Shown in pieces: positions 26,602-43,989 of a stretch of 43,989 bases of DNA. Each line of letters begins with the position of its first letter. Position 1 is the stretch's first letter. The stretch lies in the IMG/VR virus record IMGVR_UViG_3300037247_002025, positions 1-43,989 of that record. One strand, given 5' to 3'. The position numbers and the translations under genes were made by a program. The stretch comes from a virus. The notes beneath the pieces are model-generated. The model did not search any database and had not been told where the DNA came from. It saw only the letters and a list, made by a program, of their open reading frames with translations.

Positions 26602-27663
26602 ATGTCAAAAATTTACCGCCGAGAAAAACAACTTTCTACCTTAGTGCGGGGCGACGCTCGACGCATTCCGCTGGTGGATGAATCTGTCCAGTGCGTTGTG
26701 ACCTCTCCGCCTTATTGGGGCTTGCGGAAATACGCCGGTAAGCAGAGGTCGGTGTGGGGCGGGCGGAAGGATTGTGAACATAAGTGGAGAGACCAGTCTC
26801 GTTTGATAGCCACGGGCGGGCAGACGGAAAAGCAGACAACTAATCTTGGGCAAACAGGTAAGGGCTATACAACAGGGGACTCTTCTTGTAATTGCGGTGC
26901 CTGGCGCGGAGCCTACGGCCTGGAACCTACCGTCGAGTTGTACGTCCGGCACACGGTAGAGATCCTGCGGGAGATTCGTCGGGTACTGCGAGATGACGGA
27001 GTGGTGTTTTGGAACATTGGGGATTCCTACTGTGGCGCGTGGGGTAACTACGGGCATCGTCCTGAATTAGATGGGACGCCCTCTCACCAGCGCCAGAAGA
27101 ACACGATCTACCTGAAGCGCGGGGGCTGGGATAACAGGCGCGACCGCCCGGCGTCGAGCTACAAGCAGGAAGGCCTCAAGCCTAAAGACCTTTGCCTGAT
27201 TCCCTTTCGTGTCGCCCTAGCCGCCCAGGCCGATGGCTGGTGGGCGCGCTCCGACATCATCTGGGCCAAGCCTAACCCGATGCCAGAGAGCATACGTGAC
27301 CGGCCCACGCGCTCGCATGAGTACATTCTGATGCTGACCAAGAGCGCGAGGTATTACTGGAACGCGGCGGCGGTGATGGAGAAAGCTATCGGAGCAACCT
27401 CGGGAGGCGCCGGGAAGCGCAACCTCCGCTCCGTCTGGACGTTTCCCGCTCGGCCCTACCGGGGGGCGCACTTTGCCGTGTTCCCGCTAGAACTACCAAA
27501 ACGTTGTATCGAAGCGGCCACGCGGAGGGGAAACCTGGTACTCGATCCTTTCGCCGGCACCGGAACGGTCGGCGTGGCGGCTACCAAACTGAATCGAAGG
27601 TCCGTGCTACTTGATCTTACCTATCAGCGCCTAGCTCGCCGGCGGCTGGTCGCGCAAGAGTAA
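26602..27663 (+). CDS. DNA methyltransferase, N4-cytosine or N6-adenine type
   Basis: A 353-residue enzyme of the beta order: catalytic TSPPYWGLR (34-42) near the N-terminus and the SAM-binding DPFAGTGTVG (315-324) near the C-terminus. IWAKPNPMPESIRDR and THSHEYILMLTKS-like text (RSHEYILMLTKSARYYW) lies between, as in phage and restriction-linked MTases. Cys residues around CEHKW and CNCGAW may form a small zinc site for DNA recognition. G+C is visibly lower than its neighbours (48% in one 60-base line counted), suggesting recent transfer. No restriction gene lies nearby, so it is most likely an orphan that protects phage DNA. Confidence 0.85.
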   Translation: MSKIYRREKQLSTLVRGDARRIPLVDESVQCVVTSPPYWGLRKYAGKQRSVWGGRKDCEHKWRDQSRLIATGGQTEKQTTNLGQTGKGYTTGDSSCNCGAWRGAYGLEPTVELYVRHTVEILREIRRVLRDDGVVFWNIGDSYCGAWGNYGHRPELDGTPSHQRQKNTIYLKRGGWDNRRDRPASSYKQEGLKPKDLCLIPFRVALAAQADGWWARSDIIWAKPNPMPESIRDRPTRSHEYILMLTKSARYYWNAAAVMEKAIGATSGGAGKRNLRSVWTFPARPYRGAHFAVFPLELPKRCIEAATRRGNLVLDPFAGTGTVGVAATKLNRRSVLLDLTYQRLARRRLVAQE

Positions 27664-29323: not shown

Positions 29324-30040
29324 ATGACAACGACTCCCCGCGTTACCTACTGCCACCCCTCCCTCGTCGCCCCGCGTCGCTTCTACTATCGCCCTATCGG
29401 GGGTCACGACGAGTTTATCATCGGCGAGAACCTCCGGGGAACGAACCAGTATGATCGACTCGGACCGCTCTCCTCCGGAGACGTAGTGCTCGACGTAGGC
29501 GCTCACATCGGAGCGTTTACGGTCTTCGCCGCCGCCCGCGCCCGCTTCGTAGTCGCGGTCGAGCCGCTCCCCGCGAACCTTCGGCTCCTCCGGCGAAACC
29601 TCCGGGGTCTCTCGAACGTTCGCGTGGTTTCGGCGGCGGTCGACGGAACGATCGACGTACCGGGACCCCGTCCGTTCTTCGTCGCCCGAAACGAAAACCA
29701 CTACCTTGGTTCTCTCTATGTCGACGGAGGTCGCCGCCGCCGATCGGTTAAGGTGATCCCATTTCTCCCGCTTCTCTACGAGGTCCGACCTACCTACCTG
29801 AAGCTAGACTGCGAGGCCGCCGAGTATAATCTTCTCGACTGGCGACGGGTCCCCGGTTACGTCGAGGTGATCGTTTTCGAGGCGCACCTCTCGCGTCGCG
29901 CCTGGCGCGACGTCGCTTACCCGAAGCTCCTCCGCGATCTCCGGCGATCGGGCTTCGTCGTTCGTGCGCCGGAGATAAAGCGACGTTGGTCCCTCGTCGT
30001 CGCCGCCTCCCGGAGGGGCTGGAGACGGAAGAAGACCTAG
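29324..30040 (+). CDS. FkbM-family methyltransferase
   Basis: A 238-residue SAM-dependent enzyme. The motifs are VVLDVGAHIGAFTVF (motif I, 54-68), VAVEPLPANLRLLRRNL (motif II, 77-93) and LKLDCEAAEYNLL (159-171), the LK(I/L)D.EG.E.-type signature of FkbM. The C-terminal Arg-rich region is not part of the core. FkbM enzymes methylate hydroxyl groups of sugars or polyketides, so the target here is uncertain: a cell surface sugar, a virion glycan or a sugar on modified DNA. It sits among early genes, with GAGG before the ATG. Confidence 0.8.
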   Translation: MTTTPRVTYCHPSLVAPRRFYYRPIGGHDEFIIGENLRGTNQYDRLGPLSSGDVVLDVGAHIGAFTVFAAARARFVVAVEPLPANLRLLRRNLRGLSNVRVVSAAVDGTIDVPGPRPFFVARNENHYLGSLYVDGGRRRRSVKVIPFLPLLYEVRPTYLKLDCEAAEYNLLDWRRVPGYVEVIVFEAHLSRRAWRDVAYPKLLRDLRRSGFVVRAPEIKRRWSLVVAASRRGWRRKKT

Positions 30041-34190: not shown

Positions 34191-34688
34191 ATGATGTCAA
34201 AGTGGATGCAGTTTCGCAGCCAGCTCGAGCGCCTACTACCGGGCGCGGGCGGCGACGACGAGTACCAGAAGAAGATCCAGAAGACGGTCGACTACTACAC
34301 CAGGGGAAAGAAGCCAAAGACCCTCAGCCAGCTCGGTAAGATCTTCGTCGAGCTCCGGGCGAAGAAGCGCGACCTCGAGGCCGACGTGAGCTACCTCACC
34401 CTCCGGATGGAGGCGCTCTCGCGGGTCCTGCTCGAGCGGTTCGAGGACGACGGGATCACGTCCTTTAAGACGCCGGCGGACGTCACGCTCTTTATCCGCG
34501 ACGAGCCCTACGCCTCGATCGAGGACCGCGCCAAGATCTTCGCGTGGATCAAGAAGTATCGGCACGTCGAGCTGCTCGGCATCCAGTGGCAGACGTTAAA
34601 CGCCCTCATGAAGGAATATCTAACCGACGGGAAGAAGATCCCGCCCGGCGTCAAGTTGTTTCTGAAGTCGAACATCTTAGCGAGATAA
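34191..34688 (+). CDS. Coiled-coil protein of the replication block
   Basis: A 165-residue protein with a long helical segment (LGKIFVELRAKKRDLEADVSYLTLRM, about 46-71) followed by FEDDGITSFKTPADVTLFI and a C-terminal helical domain (RHVELLGIQWQTLNAL). The layout, helical hairpin then a beta segment reading like a DNA-end-binding tail, recalls Gp157-like and Gam-like phage proteins, but the match is not definite. It lies between helicase and ssDNA-binding-like genes, so a recombination accessory role is plausible. Confidence 0.5.
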   Translation: MMSKWMQFRSQLERLLPGAGGDDEYQKKIQKTVDYYTRGKKPKTLSQLGKIFVELRAKKRDLEADVSYLTLRMEALSRVLLERFEDDGITSFKTPADVTLFIRDEPYASIEDRAKIFAWIKKYRHVELLGIQWQTLNALMKEYLTDGKKIPPGVKLFLKSNILAR

Positions 34689-34698
34689 GGAGAAAACG

Positions 34699-35466
34699 AT
34701 GGAAAAGAGAAACAAGCTCGTAACGCAGGCCGGAGGTACGTTGGCGACGAAGGATCGCCCCGGCTTCTTAGCAAAGCAGACGGAGCGAAAGGGCCTCGAG
34801 CAGATCGAACGCGCCGACCTGGTACTTCCGCGCCTAAGCATCTGTCAGGCGATGTCCCCGCAGCGAAAGAAGAGCGATCCCCTCTTCATCAAGGACCTCG
34901 AGGAGGGGCAGTTCTTCAACACCGTAACCAGCCAGATCTACGGCGAGGGCGCCCTCCGGGTCATCCCGCTGCTCTTCGGAAAGTCGCGCCTCTACTTCAA
35001 GCCGTTCGACGAGGGCGGGGGGCTCCTCTGTCAGTCGATGAACGGAAAGACCGGCGGCTCGCTCTGCGCAACCTGCGAGGCCTGTCCGAAGCAGGCCTGG
35101 GGCGAGGACGGCGAGAAGCCGGCCTGCACGCTCCTCTACAACTACCCGTCGGTGCTGCTGCCGAGCTTCGAGCTGATCGTCGTCTCGATGAAGGTAACCA
35201 GCCTGAAGGCGGCGCGACAGTGGAACACGCTCATGCGCTTCCGGAACGCGGACGCCTTCGCGGGCGTCTACGAGCTCCGGGCCATCGAGGTAAAGAACAC
35301 CCTCGGGACCTACTTCGTCTTCAACGTCAAGCCAAGCCGATGGGCAAACGAGGCCGAGTACAGGCAGGCGACCGGGATCTATGAGTCGATTCAAGATCAG
35401 CAGGTTCGCCCGAGCACCGTCGGCCTGGCCCAGGAGGAACGCGCCGAAACCGCCCCGCAGATGTAG
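34699..35466 (+). CDS. Putative ssDNA-binding/replication accessory protein with zinc motif
   Basis: A 255-residue protein. LVLPRLSICQAMSPQRKKSD (41-60), VIPLLFGKSRLYFKPFDEGG, and a cysteine cluster with Cys111, Cys123, Cys126, Cys129 and Cys143 (LCATCEACPKQAW), then beta strands (SFELIVVSMKVTSLKAARQW). Phages with AEP primases often carry a protein of this layout next to the primase, thought to bind ssDNA. The acidic, disordered C-terminus (QEERAETAPQM) resembles SSB tails. The role is inferred from context and general layout, not from a proven family. Confidence 0.55.
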   Translation: MEKRNKLVTQAGGTLATKDRPGFLAKQTERKGLEQIERADLVLPRLSICQAMSPQRKKSDPLFIKDLEEGQFFNTVTSQIYGEGALRVIPLLFGKSRLYFKPFDEGGGLLCQSMNGKTGGSLCATCEACPKQAWGEDGEKPACTLLYNYPSVLLPSFELIVVSMKVTSLKAARQWNTLMRFRNADAFAGVYELRAIEVKNTLGTYFVFNVKPSRWANEAEYRQATGIYESIQDQQVRPSTVGLAQEERAETAPQM

Positions 35467-39569: not shown

Positions 39570-40712
39570 ATGGGAAATAAAAATTGGCCGAAGATTCTAA
39601 CGATAAATACCTATGCGGGCTCGCTCCTGGTCGGAGCGCGGCTTATCGGAGCGCGGGTCCGCCTGAGCCTCGAGGACGCCGCTTACGGGATGCCGGTCGC
39701 GAAGTGGAACTTCCTCGAGACGCCGATGATCGGAAACCGCGCCGGTTGGCCTGAGGAAGATCTAAGCGATACTCTCGTAATTGCCCACCCACCGTGCGCG
39801 GCCTTCTCGGTCCAGGGAAGTACGAGGAAGGCGGCGAGCGGGTTGGCGTCTTCCCACTTTAGGGAGACCGAGGAGGTGATGAAGTACGCGATGCGCCTTA
39901 ACTGCCGCGTCCTCCTGATCGAGTCGGTCGTCCCCGCGATGGAAGGAGCCCGCGCTACCCACGATCGCTTCGCGAAGAAGTACGGCTACCGGGTCTTACG
40001 GATCCTCCAGAACGCCACGACGTTCGGTGTTCCCCAGTGGCGGCTTCGCTTCTGGATCGTCTTCCTCCGCGAAAAGGGGAAGTTCCCACGCCGGGTCCCG
40101 ATCGGGCATACCCCTCGGTTTCGAGCGGTCGGCCAGGTCCTCGATCTCGACAACCTCGCCGAGCCGAGCGAGAAGGACGCGTGGCTGCTCGAGGATCAAG
40201 TTAAGAAGTTTAAGAAGAACGGTATAACCAAGCGACAGATCGAGGCGATCTTCTCCGGGGAGCAGGGGTACGGGCACCTTCAGAGCATCGTGAAGAAGTA
40301 CCTCGGGCTCCGGGGAAACCTTCAGGAGATCGTTCGCCAGTACTGCGTCGCCGGTCCCTTCCTCTCAAATACGATGTCGCTCCTAAACCCGGCCGGGTTT
40401 ACTCCGGTTCTCCTCTCGACGGCGCTCTGGTGCGTTCCCGGCGGTCGGATGATCGGAACCGACGACTATAAGGCGATCGCCGGCTTTCCCCGCGACTACC
40501 TCTTCGAGGGAAAGGCGGCTAATAAGTTTCGCGAGTACCTCTCGAAGGGCGTCGCGCCACCGGTCGCCGCCTGGCTCCTCGCCTGGCTCCTCGACCTCTG
40601 CGTCGGAAAGCTCCACGACCCGAAGGACTACGACGCCTTCTTCGTCCTCGAGGACGGCGACGTCGCCGACTTTAACGTGAAGAAGGAGGAGGCGCTCAAA
40701 CGTGTCGGATGA
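39570..40712 (+). CDS. C5-cytosine DNA methyltransferase (Dcm-type)
   Basis: A 380-residue enzyme. Motif I is atypical (TINTYAGSLLVGARLIGA instead of FxGxGG), motif IV HPPCAAFSVQG carries the catalytic Cys, motif VI is IESVVPA in place of ENV but keeps Glu, and motif VIII QWRLR is intact. A target-recognition-like region follows, and YLSKGVAPPVAAWLLAWL near the C-terminus is motif X. It should methylate cytosine C5 in a specific site. No restriction enzyme is nearby. The odd motif I may mean an unusual cofactor loop. Coupled by gap, not overlap, to its neighbours. Confidence 0.8.
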   Translation: MGNKNWPKILTINTYAGSLLVGARLIGARVRLSLEDAAYGMPVAKWNFLETPMIGNRAGWPEEDLSDTLVIAHPPCAAFSVQGSTRKAASGLASSHFRETEEVMKYAMRLNCRVLLIESVVPAMEGARATHDRFAKKYGYRVLRILQNATTFGVPQWRLRFWIVFLREKGKFPRRVPIGHTPRFRAVGQVLDLDNLAEPSEKDAWLLEDQVKKFKKNGITKRQIEAIFSGEQGYGHLQSIVKKYLGLRGNLQEIVRQYCVAGPFLSNTMSLLNPAGFTPVLLSTALWCVPGGRMIGTDDYKAIAGFPRDYLFEGKAANKFREYLSKGVAPPVAAWLLAWLLDLCVGKLHDPKDYDAFFVLEDGDVADFNVKKEEALKRVG

Positions 40713-40800
40713 AACTCTTGCTTTTTGGTGGTGCGTGATGGTCTGGGCGGCGGCGATACTTATCGCAAGGAGGCTTAGTGGGAAAGATAGTGATTCTTGA
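40702..40800 (+). CDS. Tiny single-pass membrane protein, 32 residues
   Basis: From GTG at 40702 with GGAGGAGG upstream: (M)SDETLAFWWCVMVWAAAILI then ARRLSGKDSDS. One membrane helix (about 7-22) and a charged tail. It overlaps both neighbours (the methyltransferase end and the kinase start), which is unusual for a random frame. It may be only a translational bridge to the kinase start. Confidence 0.35.
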   Translation: MSDETLAFWWCVMVWAAAILIARRLSGKDSDS

Positions 40801-41668
40801 GGGACCGGACGGCGGGGGAAAGACGGCGCTCGCCCAGCGGTTTCAACGGGCTGGGTTTGCCTACCACCACGAGGGACCGCCCCCGAAGCGAAAGAGCTGG
40901 GACGCGCTCGCCCACTACGGCGCGCTCGTCGAGCGGGCCCGGCGCGCGCGCCACGACACGGTCTTCGACCGCCTCCACCTCGGCGAGACCATCTACGGCC
41001 CGCTCGCGCGCGGTTGGGACCGGCTCGGGATCGACGGGCTAAAGCTGATGAACCGGCTCATCCGAGCGGCGGGGGTTAAGATCTGGCTTTGCCTCCCGTC
41101 CTACACCCGGTGCCTAGAGAACTGGCGAACGATAAAGGGCGGCCGCGCCGAGTACGTTAAGGACGAGTTAATCTTCAGGCGTATCTATGATGCCTGGCGC
41201 CGGCGCTACGCGCGGCTGCTCTCGATCTTTGACTATACGATCGACGACGAGGGGGATCTAATCGACGACGCGCTCCGCGAGCGGCCGCAGCTTCCGCCCG
41301 GCGTCGTCGGTGCGCCGAACGCGACCTGGCTCTTCGTCGGCGAGCGGCCGGCCGGGCCGCTCGACCTGGCGTTCTTCGCCCGCGAGGGATCAAGCGCGTA
41401 CCTGAATCGCTGCCTGGCGCGGGCCGGGTTTCGCGAGCCGATGATCGCGCTCGTCAACGCCTGCTCCTGGCGCGGCGGCCAGCGTCGGCTCCGCCGGCTC
41501 CAGGAGCAATACTCGCTCCGGGTGGTCGCGCTCGGGGCCGTCGCGCGGAGCGTCTGCCTGTGGCAGGGCGTTCCGGTTCGGGCCGCGCTTCCGCACCCGC
41601 AGTACTGGAAGCGGTTTCACTTTCACGACGAAGACGGATACGTTCAGCTCTTGAGGAGGATAAAATGA
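40778..41668 (+). CDS. dNMP kinase fused to a UDG-like domain
   Basis: Encodes 296 residues from GTG at 40778 (AAGGAGGCTTA upstream). Residues 1-~170 form a thymidylate-kinase-like P-loop domain: GPDGGGKT (9-16), FDRLHLGETIYGPL (63-76), WLCLPSYTRCLENW. Residues ~182-296 form a second domain: WLFVGERPAGP (184-194), LVNACSW, VVALGAVARS, PHPQYWKRFH (272-281), the pattern of the uracil-DNA glycosylase fold. A kinase joined to a UDG-like domain is unusual and hints at nucleotide processing of a non-standard base. The fold of the second half is inferred by eye. Confidence 0.65.
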   Translation: MGKIVILEGPDGGGKTALAQRFQRAGFAYHHEGPPPKRKSWDALAHYGALVERARRARHDTVFDRLHLGETIYGPLARGWDRLGIDGLKLMNRLIRAAGVKIWLCLPSYTRCLENWRTIKGGRAEYVKDELIFRRIYDAWRRRYARLLSIFDYTIDDEGDLIDDALRERPQLPPGVVGAPNATWLFVGERPAGPLDLAFFAREGSSAYLNRCLARAGFREPMIALVNACSWRGGQRRLRRLQEQYSLRVVALGAVARSVCLWQGVPVRAALPHPQYWKRFHFHDEDGYVQLLRRIK

Positions 41669-42510
41669 CGATTAGCACCGCGACGATGGCGAGCCTCTAC
41701 CGACAGCTACTCCAAAATTTGCTTGCGACGGGATGGATAGCGTCTCCCCACGGACGATCGACGCTTGAGATCCCCGGCCTGACCCTCTACCTCGCCGACA
41801 GCAGCCGAAACGTCCTGGTCCACCCGGTTCGGAATCTCAACTATCGGTTCATGATCGCCGAGTGGCTCTGGGTCGCGCTCGGCCGAAACCGGCTCGCCGA
41901 CCTTACCCGGTACAACTCAAAGATGGCCGCCTTCTCCGACGACGGGGTAACGCTCGCCGGGGCGTACGGCCCGCGCCTCCGGCCGCAGCTCCCCTACCTT
42001 TACCGCGCGCTCGCCGACCCGGACAGCCGCCAGGCGGTCGCGACCATCTGGACGCCGGCGCCGGCCGCCTCGAAGGATCTTCCCTGCACGCTCGCGCTCC
42101 AGTTCCTTCTTCGCCGCGGGCGGCTCCACCTGATCGTTACGATGCGCTCGAGCGACGCCTGGCTCGGCATCCCGTACGACTTCTTTACCATGTCGATGCT
42201 CCAAAACTCGCTCGCCGGGACGCTCGGGGTTGCGCGTGGCTTCATCCAGTTTAATCTCGGGTCGAGTCACCTTTATAAGGAGGACGCGGAGCGGGCGGCC
42301 GGGCTCGTCTACACCCAGCCGGGCGGTGACGAGACGCTCCGCTCGCCCGCGCTCGACGGGCCGCCGCCTGCCACGATGGAATCAATCTTTGAAGAATATT
42401 CAGCCATGTGCGGCTTGACACCGAAGTGGGTGCTCTACCGACGCTGTCTTCAAACGAAGACGAGCCAAGAATGCCTGGAGGTGCTCCGTGAAGCGAGCGA
42501 GCTTGGATGA
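41665..42510 (+). CDS. ThyA-family enzyme, probable dCMP hydroxymethylase
   Basis: Encodes 281 residues starting MTISTATMASLYRQ; ATG overlaps the previous TGA, with GAGGAGG upstream. The ThyA fold is shown by GAYGPRLR (99-106), LPCTLALQF (catalytic Cys141), MRSSDAWLGIPYDFF (160-174) and GSSHLY (199-204, His202). In thymidylate synthases the residue in PFN is Asn and selects dUMP; here it is Asp172, as in T4 dCMP hydroxymethylase, where Asp selects dCMP. The His after the catalytic Cys is Thr. It would therefore make hydroxymethyl- or methyl-dCMP, not dTMP. Activity unproven. Confidence 0.7.
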   Translation: MTISTATMASLYRQLLQNLLATGWIASPHGRSTLEIPGLTLYLADSSRNVLVHPVRNLNYRFMIAEWLWVALGRNRLADLTRYNSKMAAFSDDGVTLAGAYGPRLRPQLPYLYRALADPDSRQAVATIWTPAPAASKDLPCTLALQFLLRRGRLHLIVTMRSSDAWLGIPYDFFTMSMLQNSLAGTLGVARGFIQFNLGSSHLYKEDAERAAGLVYTQPGGDETLRSPALDGPPPATMESIFEEYSAMCGLTPKWVLYRRCLQTKTSQECLEVLREASELG

Positions 42511-42991
42511 CTACTTCCTGAAGATGCTCGACCTGGTCGCCTCGCGCTCGACCTGCGCGCGGCGCGCGGTCGCGGCGATCATCACCGACGCGACCGGCCA
42601 CGTCCTCTCGACCGGCTACAACGGCGTCCCGGCCGGAATGCCCCACTGTACCGACGTTCCCTGCCCGGGCGCGAACCGCCCCAGCGGGATTGACCTCGAC
42701 CTCTGCGAGGCGATCCATGCCGAGCAGAACGCGCTGCTCCAGTGTTACCGGCTCGACCTCGCGCGCGTCCTCTACTGCTCGGTCGTCCCCTGCTATCCGT
42801 GCGCGAAGCTGATCGTCAACACCTCGATCCTGCGGATCGTCGTCAAGGAGGACTACGCGTCCGCGCACTGGGAACGGACGTTAAAGATATTTAAGTGGAA
42901 GCAGATATTTATTAAGATGGGAGATTTATTTTGGTCCTATCAAGAAAACGCGTGGGTAGCTCGTGACGCCGTTGCAGGCCCGGCTCTTTAG
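42488..42991 (+). CDS. Deoxycytidylate (dCMP) deaminase
   Basis: Encodes 167 residues from GTG at 42488. Zinc site CEAIHAEQNA (His77, Glu79) and VPCYPCAKLI (Cys102, Cys105); the Cys-rich insert MPHCTDVPCPGANR and start MLDLVASRSTCARRAVAAII are typical of dCMP deaminases rather than cytidine deaminases. It turns dCMP into dUMP for the dTTP pool. It overlaps the ThyA-family gene, so both act on the same dCMP pool. The C-terminal 50 residues are less conserved. Confidence 0.85.
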   Translation: MKRASLDDYFLKMLDLVASRSTCARRAVAAIITDATGHVLSTGYNGVPAGMPHCTDVPCPGANRPSGIDLDLCEAIHAEQNALLQCYRLDLARVLYCSVVPCYPCAKLIVNTSILRIVVKEDYASAHWERTLKIFKWKQIFIKMGDLFWSYQENAWVARDAVAGPAL

Positions 42992-43989
42992 CGCGCCGCC
43001 GCGGCCGCGCGGGGGCTGGCGCCCGCCGGCAACCCTGCCGGAGCTCGCCCGCTACCCGTGGCTCGCCGTCGACACGGAGACCACCGGGCTCGACATAACG
43101 AAGGACCAACCGGTCGGGATCGCCGCCCACGCGCCCGACGGCCGCGCGTACTACCTCCCCTTCGCTCATCGGGGCGGCGGGAACCTCGACCCCGCGCTCG
43201 TTAAGCGTTGGGCGCGGGCCGAGCTCCGCGGCAAGGACCTCTACTTCTCCTCGGCGAAGTTCGACAACCACATGTTCTGGAACTGGGGGATCGACCTCGA
43301 AGCCCAGGGCTGCCGGCTGCACGACGTTCAGCACGCGGCCGCGCTCCTCGACGAGCACCGCCGGCGGTTCGCCCTCGACGTCCTGGCCGAGGAGTTCCTC
43401 GGCCGCGGTAAGTTCGGGCTCCCGACCGACGTCAAGATCAGCGACATGAGCGCCGGCGAGGTCGGCCCCTACGCCGAGAACGACGCGCGGCTCGTCGGCC
43501 TCCTCAAGGAGCACCTCGCGCCGAAGATCGCGGCCGAGAGCCTCGGGCCGGTCCTCGACCTCGAGGACGCGCTAGTCTACGCGACCTGCGCCCCGATCGA
43601 CGTAAAGAAGCTCGAGCGCTGGCGGGCGCGAGTCCGGGCGGAGTACCAGGACGCGATCCTCGCGATCTACGCGGCGATGAAGCTCCGCGTCAACCCCAAC
43701 TCCGGCCCGGACCTCGCCCGCCTCTTTCGGGAGCTCGGCCTCTCGTACGACAGCACGCTCCACGGCCGCCCGAGCTTTACCAGCGACTTTCTCGAGACGG
43801 TCGATCATCCGACCGTCCGGCTCGCGCTCCGCGCCCGGAAGCTCGGCGACATCAACTCCAAGTACCTCGATAAGTACGCGCGCCAGCTCCGGGGCGGCTC
43901 GACCCTACGCTACAAGCTCTGGCAGCTCCGGACCGACCAGTACGGAACGACCACCGGCCGCTACGCGAGCTCGAGCGTCAACATCCAGC
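42963..43989 (+). CDS. Family A DNA polymerase, N-terminal part (3'-5' exonuclease)
   Basis: Open frame to the right edge, 342 codons seen. It starts at GTG 42963 inside the deaminase end (weak ribosome site; TTG 42972 is an alternative). VDTETTGLD (Exo I, DxE), SAKFDNHMF (Exo II) and YAENDARLV (Exo III) form a DEDDy proofreading domain at about 37-180. DQYGTTTGRYASSSVNIQ at the very edge begins the polymerase domain (TGR.SSS.PN.Q motif). It is the likely replicative polymerase. The fingers, with the nucleotide-binding residues, lie outside the window. Confidence 0.92.
   Translation, partial: MTPLQARLFSAPPRPRGGWRPPATLPELARYPWLAVDTETTGLDITKDQPVGIAAHAPDGRAYYLPFAHRGGGNLDPALVKRWARAELRGKDLYFSSAKFDNHMFWNWGIDLEAQGCRLHDVQHAAALLDEHRRRFALDVLAEEFLGRGKFGLPTDVKISDMSAGEVGPYAENDARLVGLLKEHLAPKIAAESLGPVLDLEDALVYATCAPIDVKKLERWRARVRAEYQDAILAIYAAMKLRVNPNSGPDLARLFRELGLSYDSTLHGRPSFTSDFLETVDHPTVRLALRARKLGDINSKYLDKYARQLRGGSTLRYKLWQLRTDQYGTTTGRYASSSVNIQ

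Follow-up and report, generated by a model that had tools for sequence, protein, structure and literature searches.

Organization of the locus

The window analyzed here is the whole 43,989-nucleotide stretch of IMG/VR virus record IMGVR_UViG_3300037247_002025. Near its end, the plus strand carries the following genes and features.

39570..40712, plus strand: C5-methyltransferase (C5-MTase)-fold protein missing two residues from the motif I (AdoMet) loop (PF00145, E = 5e-12; PPC, ESV, and QWRLR kept)
40778..41272, plus strand: predicted kinase domain for dNMP (5hm-dCMP), at the N terminus of a fusion ORF (PHROG 761 thymidylate kinase; nearest PDB entries YorR 2axp and 3kb2)
41309..41668, plus strand: UDG-fold domain at the C terminus of the same fusion (with motifs VGERP, NA, LGAVA, and HPQYWKRF; Foldseek matches UdgX 6iod and TtUDG 1ui0)
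41665..42510, plus strand: predicted dCMP 5-hydroxymethylase, thymidylate synthase (TS) family, 281 amino acids (TS-family profiles, active-site residues, model)
42076..42087, plus strand: codons of Asp138-Leu-Pro-Cys141 (DLPC), the hydroxymethylation signature Asp and the catalytic Cys (compare T4 gp42 Asp145/Cys148; PMC6400193)
42178..42180, plus strand: codon of Asp172 (GAC, in LGIPYD), the cytosine-selecting residue by alignment
42488..42991, plus strand: dCMP deaminase (PF00383, E = 1e-17; PHROG 174, E = 4e-37)
42963..43988, plus strand: family A DNA polymerase, truncated by the end of the window after the 3'-5' exonuclease and the beginning of the polymerase domain

The open reading frame (ORF) at 41665-42510 begins with an ATG at 41665, preceded by gaggag, and encodes 281 residues up to a stop at 42510. 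Its first 4 nt are shared with the kinase ORF (40778-41668), and its last 23 nt with the dCMP deaminase ORF (42488-42991). The kinase, hydroxymethylase, and deaminase genes thus look co-transcribed and translationally coupled. An earlier note on this DNA had described a dNMP kinase fusion directly upstream and an overlapping dCMP deaminase downstream; both are present as described, and the fusion partner that it left unnamed is the UDG-fold domain. Among the window ORFs scanned, we found no gene for a dihydrofolate reductase (DHFR), a TET protein, a glycosyltransferase, or a carbamoyltransferase. No NTP-pyrophosphatase (NTP-PPase) gene was found in the 44-kb window, whose end lies inside the polymerase gene. 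The early region carries an N6/N4 DNA methyltransferase (26602-27663) and an FkbM-type methyltransferase (29324-30040), which are possible further DNA or nucleotide modification genes. The segment at 34191-35466 holds homologues of cyanophage Pam3 gp33 and gp34, which also lie near the cassette in about 30 related contigs.

Family and predicted fold of the 41665-42510 protein

The 41665-42510 protein matched Pfam PF00303 (E = 3e-18) and PHROG 5131, thymidylate synthase (E = 1e-44). Its placement in the thymidylate synthase superfamily is based on the family profile, the fold, the catalytic Cys, Glu58, Arg166-Ser167, Asp169, and His207/Tyr209. The earlier note had proposed structure prediction and alignment as a check on its reading. 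The AlphaFold2 model (pLDDT 93.5, pTM 0.92) had as its best PDB match the CMP 5-hydroxymethylase MilA (E = 2e-19, TM-score 0.83), followed by TS structures and the dCMP enzyme AfhB of phage HY126 (9iqu); the structure-model alignments covered the window and the IMG/VR loci. The sequence profile likewise ranked MilA, a cytosine hydroxymethylase, first among PDB entries. MilA (PDB 5jnh and 5b6d) shares 30% identity with the window protein and has the same residues for cytosine and for hydroxymethylation.

Active-site residues point to a dCMP 5-hydroxymethylase

Which nucleotide would this enzyme use, and which group would it add? In the TS family, position 177 is Asn in enzymes acting on uracil and Asp in those acting on cytosine (PMC8670742; PMC5175136). 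A MAFFT alignment that included the SPO1, Pam3, and DLP4 enzymes placed Asp172 in the same column as Asn177 of E. coli ThyA (EcThyA) and Asp179 of T4 gp42, which bears out the earlier proposal that LGIPYD puts an Asp at the dCMP-selecting position as in the T4 enzyme. The idea itself is not new, because Asp177 has been published as a marker of modified cytosine (MetaGPA, PMC8670742). Asp138 sits three residues before the catalytic Cys141 (Cys-3) and fits the published hydroxymethylase signature, an Asp or Glu at that position. In these enzymes, the Asp activates a water molecule for hydroxylation of the exocyclic methylene; the corresponding residue of TS is hydrophobic, and the D145N change in T4 gp42 abolishes the product (PMC6400193). 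Glu66 is present together with Cys141, Thr142 occupies the place of His147 in thymidylate synthase proper, and the alignment ends without a TS-type C-terminal tail. Thymidylate synthase proper (Asn177, His147, and the C-terminal tail) was ruled against on the basis of Asp172, Thr142, and the missing tail.

The window protein therefore resembles T4 gp42 in having Asp at both 177 and Cys-3, Thr at 147, the catalytic Cys and Glu, and no TS C-terminal tail, although the two sequences are distant (phmmer E of about 5e-6). Unlike gp42, it lacks the second T4 signature, a Ser or Thr two residues before a Tyr (Ser94-x-Tyr96), and reads Gly99-Ala-Tyr101 instead. Gly is found at this position in most of the clade, and the SPO1 (Ala) and Pam3 (Gly) enzymes also lack the Ser, so the signature is not universal among hydroxymethylases. 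Given its absence, we assign the protein to the dCMP hydroxymethylases on its predicted function, without calling it an orthologue of T4 gp42. In addition, Gln replaces the second phosphate-binding Arg (EcThyA 127) here and in nearly the whole clade; thus, catalysis cannot be assumed to be identical to that of T4. The T4 and window loci also differ in that the window kinase is fused to a UDG-fold domain and no glucosyltransferase accompanies it among the ORFs scanned.

These data suggest that the 41665-42510 protein is very probably a phage dCMP 5-hydroxymethylase, as judged from its residues and its model. Could it instead be a dCMP methylase of the XP12 type, yielding 5-methyl-dCMP and a 5mC genome? 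The change of Asn177 to Asp is said to suffice for TS to methylate dCMP (Liu and Santi 1992, as cited in PMC8670742), and the enzyme of DLP4, which served as the methylase control in place of XP12 (same clade, with the base content of DLP4 inferred), likewise has Asp at 177. However, the DLP4 enzyme has Asn at Cys-3, a longer C-terminal tail, and a neighboring DHFR, which is what a methylase releasing DHF would need, whereas the window protein has Asp138 and lacks a TS tail, and no DHFR turned up in the window ORFs scanned. The residue at Cys-3 and the missing tail favor dCMP hydroxymethylase over dCMP methylase, as does the loss of product in the T4 D145N mutant, and we regard methylation as improbable.

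An ordinary thymidylate synthase, or a dUMP hydroxymethylase of the SPO1/Pam3 type, could be fed by the deaminase encoded directly downstream, which makes dUMP. The related protein gp28 of Stenotrophomonas phage AXL3 is annotated as a thymidylate synthase, but AXL3 also encodes ThyX for dTMP (PMC7504290). The SPO1 and Pam3 enzymes combine Asn177 with Asp at Cys-3, and all dUMP-type enzymes compared retain the Asn that is replaced by Asp in the window protein, which makes a dUMP substrate very unlikely. Action on the ribonucleotide CMP for a nucleoside product, as in MilA, is the least probable of all: MilA is the closest solved structure by both sequence and fold, but the window protein has Arg122 and Ser162, the deoxyribonucleotide type, in place of the ribose determinants Lys133 and Ala176 (EcThyA positions 126 and 167, where Arg/Ser go with deoxyribose and Lys/Ala with ribose, and where the A176S/K133R change switches MilA to dCMP; PMC5175136), and it lies among phage replication genes.

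The cassette is conserved in related viruses

To the dCMP hydroxymethylase assignment, the relatives of the window protein add a conserved gene context. Scans of IMG/VR by peptide patterns recovered hundreds of relatives. The patterns of the first scan contained position 177, but those of the two main scans left it out, so conservation there is no search artifact. Asp was present at 177 in 110 of the 115 aligned ThyA-family proteins and at Cys-3 in 113 of them; Asp172 is thus not due to chance. The five proteins with Asn at 177 came from phages SPO1 (gp29, annotated as a dUMP hydroxymethylase), Pam3, CN2, LuckyBarnes, and P26218.

Removal of these five Asn controls, E. coli, and T4 left 109 nonredundant viral loci. 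Near the hydroxymethylase, we counted a kinase in 102 loci, a dCMP deaminase in 96, a MazG-like NTP-PPase in 87, and a UDG-fold domain in 85, which was fused to the kinase in all but one (84). A Methyltransf_23 protein was found in 62 loci, the C5-MTase-fold protein in 24, and a TAGT glycosyltransferase in 2. The earlier suggestion of a phage-made modified cytosine nucleotide is supported at the level of sequence and fold by Asp172, the MilA-like fold, and the kinase, deaminase, and NTP-PPase context kept in relatives. The MetaGPA study described TS homologues in modified contigs that resemble these proteins in Asp177, an altered position 147, and co-occurring deaminase and PRA-PH/MazG domains. 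Those homologues were linked to a carbamoyltransferase, which was not seen among the window ORFs scanned, and text searches of the paper gave no hit for PF00145 or PF03167 domains (PMC8670742).

The cassette, whole or partial, also lies on five MAG contigs labeled Gallionella, Chromatiales, Lentisphaera, Proteobacteria, and Patescibacteria, which are presumably binned phage. The Methyltransf_23-type proteins (for example, L016:3993-4889 and L020:2668-3492, and also in AXL3) could O-methylate 5hmC or act elsewhere. TS homologues in which Asp177 and Asp at Cys-3 are joined by Arg126 and Ser167 also occur on actinomycete genome contigs (Streptomyces, Kitasatospora, Amycolatopsis, Paractinoplanes, and others; L226-L235), where the phage cassette is absent. 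Two distant homologues (L236 and L237) share Asp177 but differ at Cys-3 (Phe), 126 (Gln), and 167 (Ala), which leaves no clear prediction of their substrate. Three further members (L212:12378-13436, L188, and L193) pair Asp177 with Ala, Asn, or Tyr at Cys-3 and are possible dCMP methylases within the same clade.

Among cultured phages, AXL3 (gp27-gp31) carries in a row the deaminase, an enzyme with Asp177 and Asp at Cys-3, the kinase-UDG fusion, and the NTP-PPase. Its cassette differs from that of the window in having a Methyltransf_23-type protein in place of the C5-MTase-fold protein, and it was annotated as a dTMP pathway. Genomic DNA of AXL3 was cut by only 2 of 37 restriction enzymes, both with A/T-only sites, and resisted the other 35; its authors named no modification (PMC7504290). 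A 5hmC-type genome would explain this resistance.

A kinase-UDG fusion and a C5-MTase-fold protein accompany the enzyme

Although the predicted hydroxymethylase belongs to a known enzyme type, unusual proteins are encoded next to it. The model of the kinase fusion reached a pLDDT of 95.4, and its C-terminal half resembles UdgX and the Thermus family 4 UDG (Foldseek, with a profile alignment to 1ui0). The Pfam UDG profile scored below cut-off for the window protein and above cut-off for two relatives (L005 and L015); in L015, the UDG-fold domain is a stand-alone protein adjoining the hydroxymethylase (L015:196-711). The domain keeps the acidic motif A, the Asn of the NA motif, and the HPQ/HPS motif. 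The fold together with the motifs GE.PG and HP(S/Q) places it in the UDG superfamily, with its activity a prediction. Brig1 and Brig3, UDG-superfamily glycosylases of host defense, remove glucosyl-hmC and hmC (PMC11078745, PMC13160076), so a UDG fold can read hmC. In the phage cassette, the domain may keep uracil or unmodified nucleotides in check; alternatively, it may bind the modified base.

Motif I of the C5-MTase-fold protein reads NTYAG--SLLVG, compared with DLFAGIGGIRRG in E. coli Dcm, and does not fit the F-x-G-x-G pattern of the AdoMet loop. The two-residue deletion was present in all 24 family members aligned, which span two subfamilies, and the Asn, Tyr, Gly, and Ser of motif I were invariant in the main subfamily (16 relatives). 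The catalytic motifs are retained and invariant: Cys76 (PPC), Glu118 (motif VI), and Q156-x-R-x-R. We took the distribution of this family from IMG/VR; a tblastn search of 50,697 phage records gave nothing at 1e-5. A ThyA-family enzyme was found on 25 of the 29 IMG/VR contigs with a main-type C5-MTase-fold gene (within the fetched flank on 19 and elsewhere on the contig in 6), with Asp177 in every one scored. With the window included, 26 of the 30 contigs bearing the gene also encode an Asp177 enzyme; the four contigs without a ThyA-family partner are 13.6 to 42.6 kb long and may be fragments. Some C5-MTase-fold proteins are fusions, with a TAGT domain in L003 (412-2739) and with Methyltransf_23 in L063 (4816-7338) and L170 (5019-7028), and the one in L002 (2859-3935) adjoins a TAGT gene. 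TAGT proteins are a glycosyltransferase family that takes its name from TET operons acting on 5hmC; we found them only beside the relatives in L002 and L003.

Is this protein an ordinary 5mC methylase? It may be, but such an enzyme would find no free C5 on fully hydroxymethylated DNA, and for this reason we entertain a nonmethylating role on 5hmC. The protein might represent a new class of enzymes that hypermodify 5hmC after replication, working with the kinase-glycosylase fusion, a proposal that we hold only tentatively. C5-MTases reportedly couple thiols to 5hmC in vitro without AdoMet, in work from the Klimasauskas group. In the proposed reaction, the C5-MTase-fold protein could flip 5hmC out and attack C6 with its Cys; expulsion of water would then regenerate the exocyclic methylene formed earlier by the hydroxymethylase, to which a non-AdoMet nucleophile could add. 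Alternatively, the protein could make 5hmC accessible to a transferase, either fused to it or acting as a partner.

Proposed pathway and implications

The partners of T4 gp42 include a dNMP kinase and a dCMP deaminase. If the window enzyme follows the chemistry of gp42, Cys141 would attack C6 of dCMP, methylene-THF would form the exocyclic methylene on C5, and Asp138 would activate a water molecule whose addition yields 5hm-dCMP and THF. From the gene context, the co-transcribed kinase domain would take 5hm-dCMP to the diphosphate, while the dCMP deaminase, joined in most relatives by the MazG-like NTP-PPase, would lower unmodified dCMP and dCTP. The adjoining DNA polymerase would incorporate 5hm-dCTP, and the genome would carry 5hmC or a derivative as protection against restriction. 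Cytosine replacement of the kind seen in phage T4 is thus probable in the DNA of this virus.

On this reading, the cytosine replacement strategy of T4 would extend to a large lineage of uncultured phages and a few cultured ones, with a possible account of the unexplained restriction resistance of AXL3. A two-residue rule, combining position 177 with Cys-3, would separate the enzymes that make T, hmU, mC, and hmC. Encoded beside cytosine-modifying enzymes, the kinase-UDG fusion and the C5-MTase fold with its deleted AdoMet loop are good candidates for new DNA-base chemistry.
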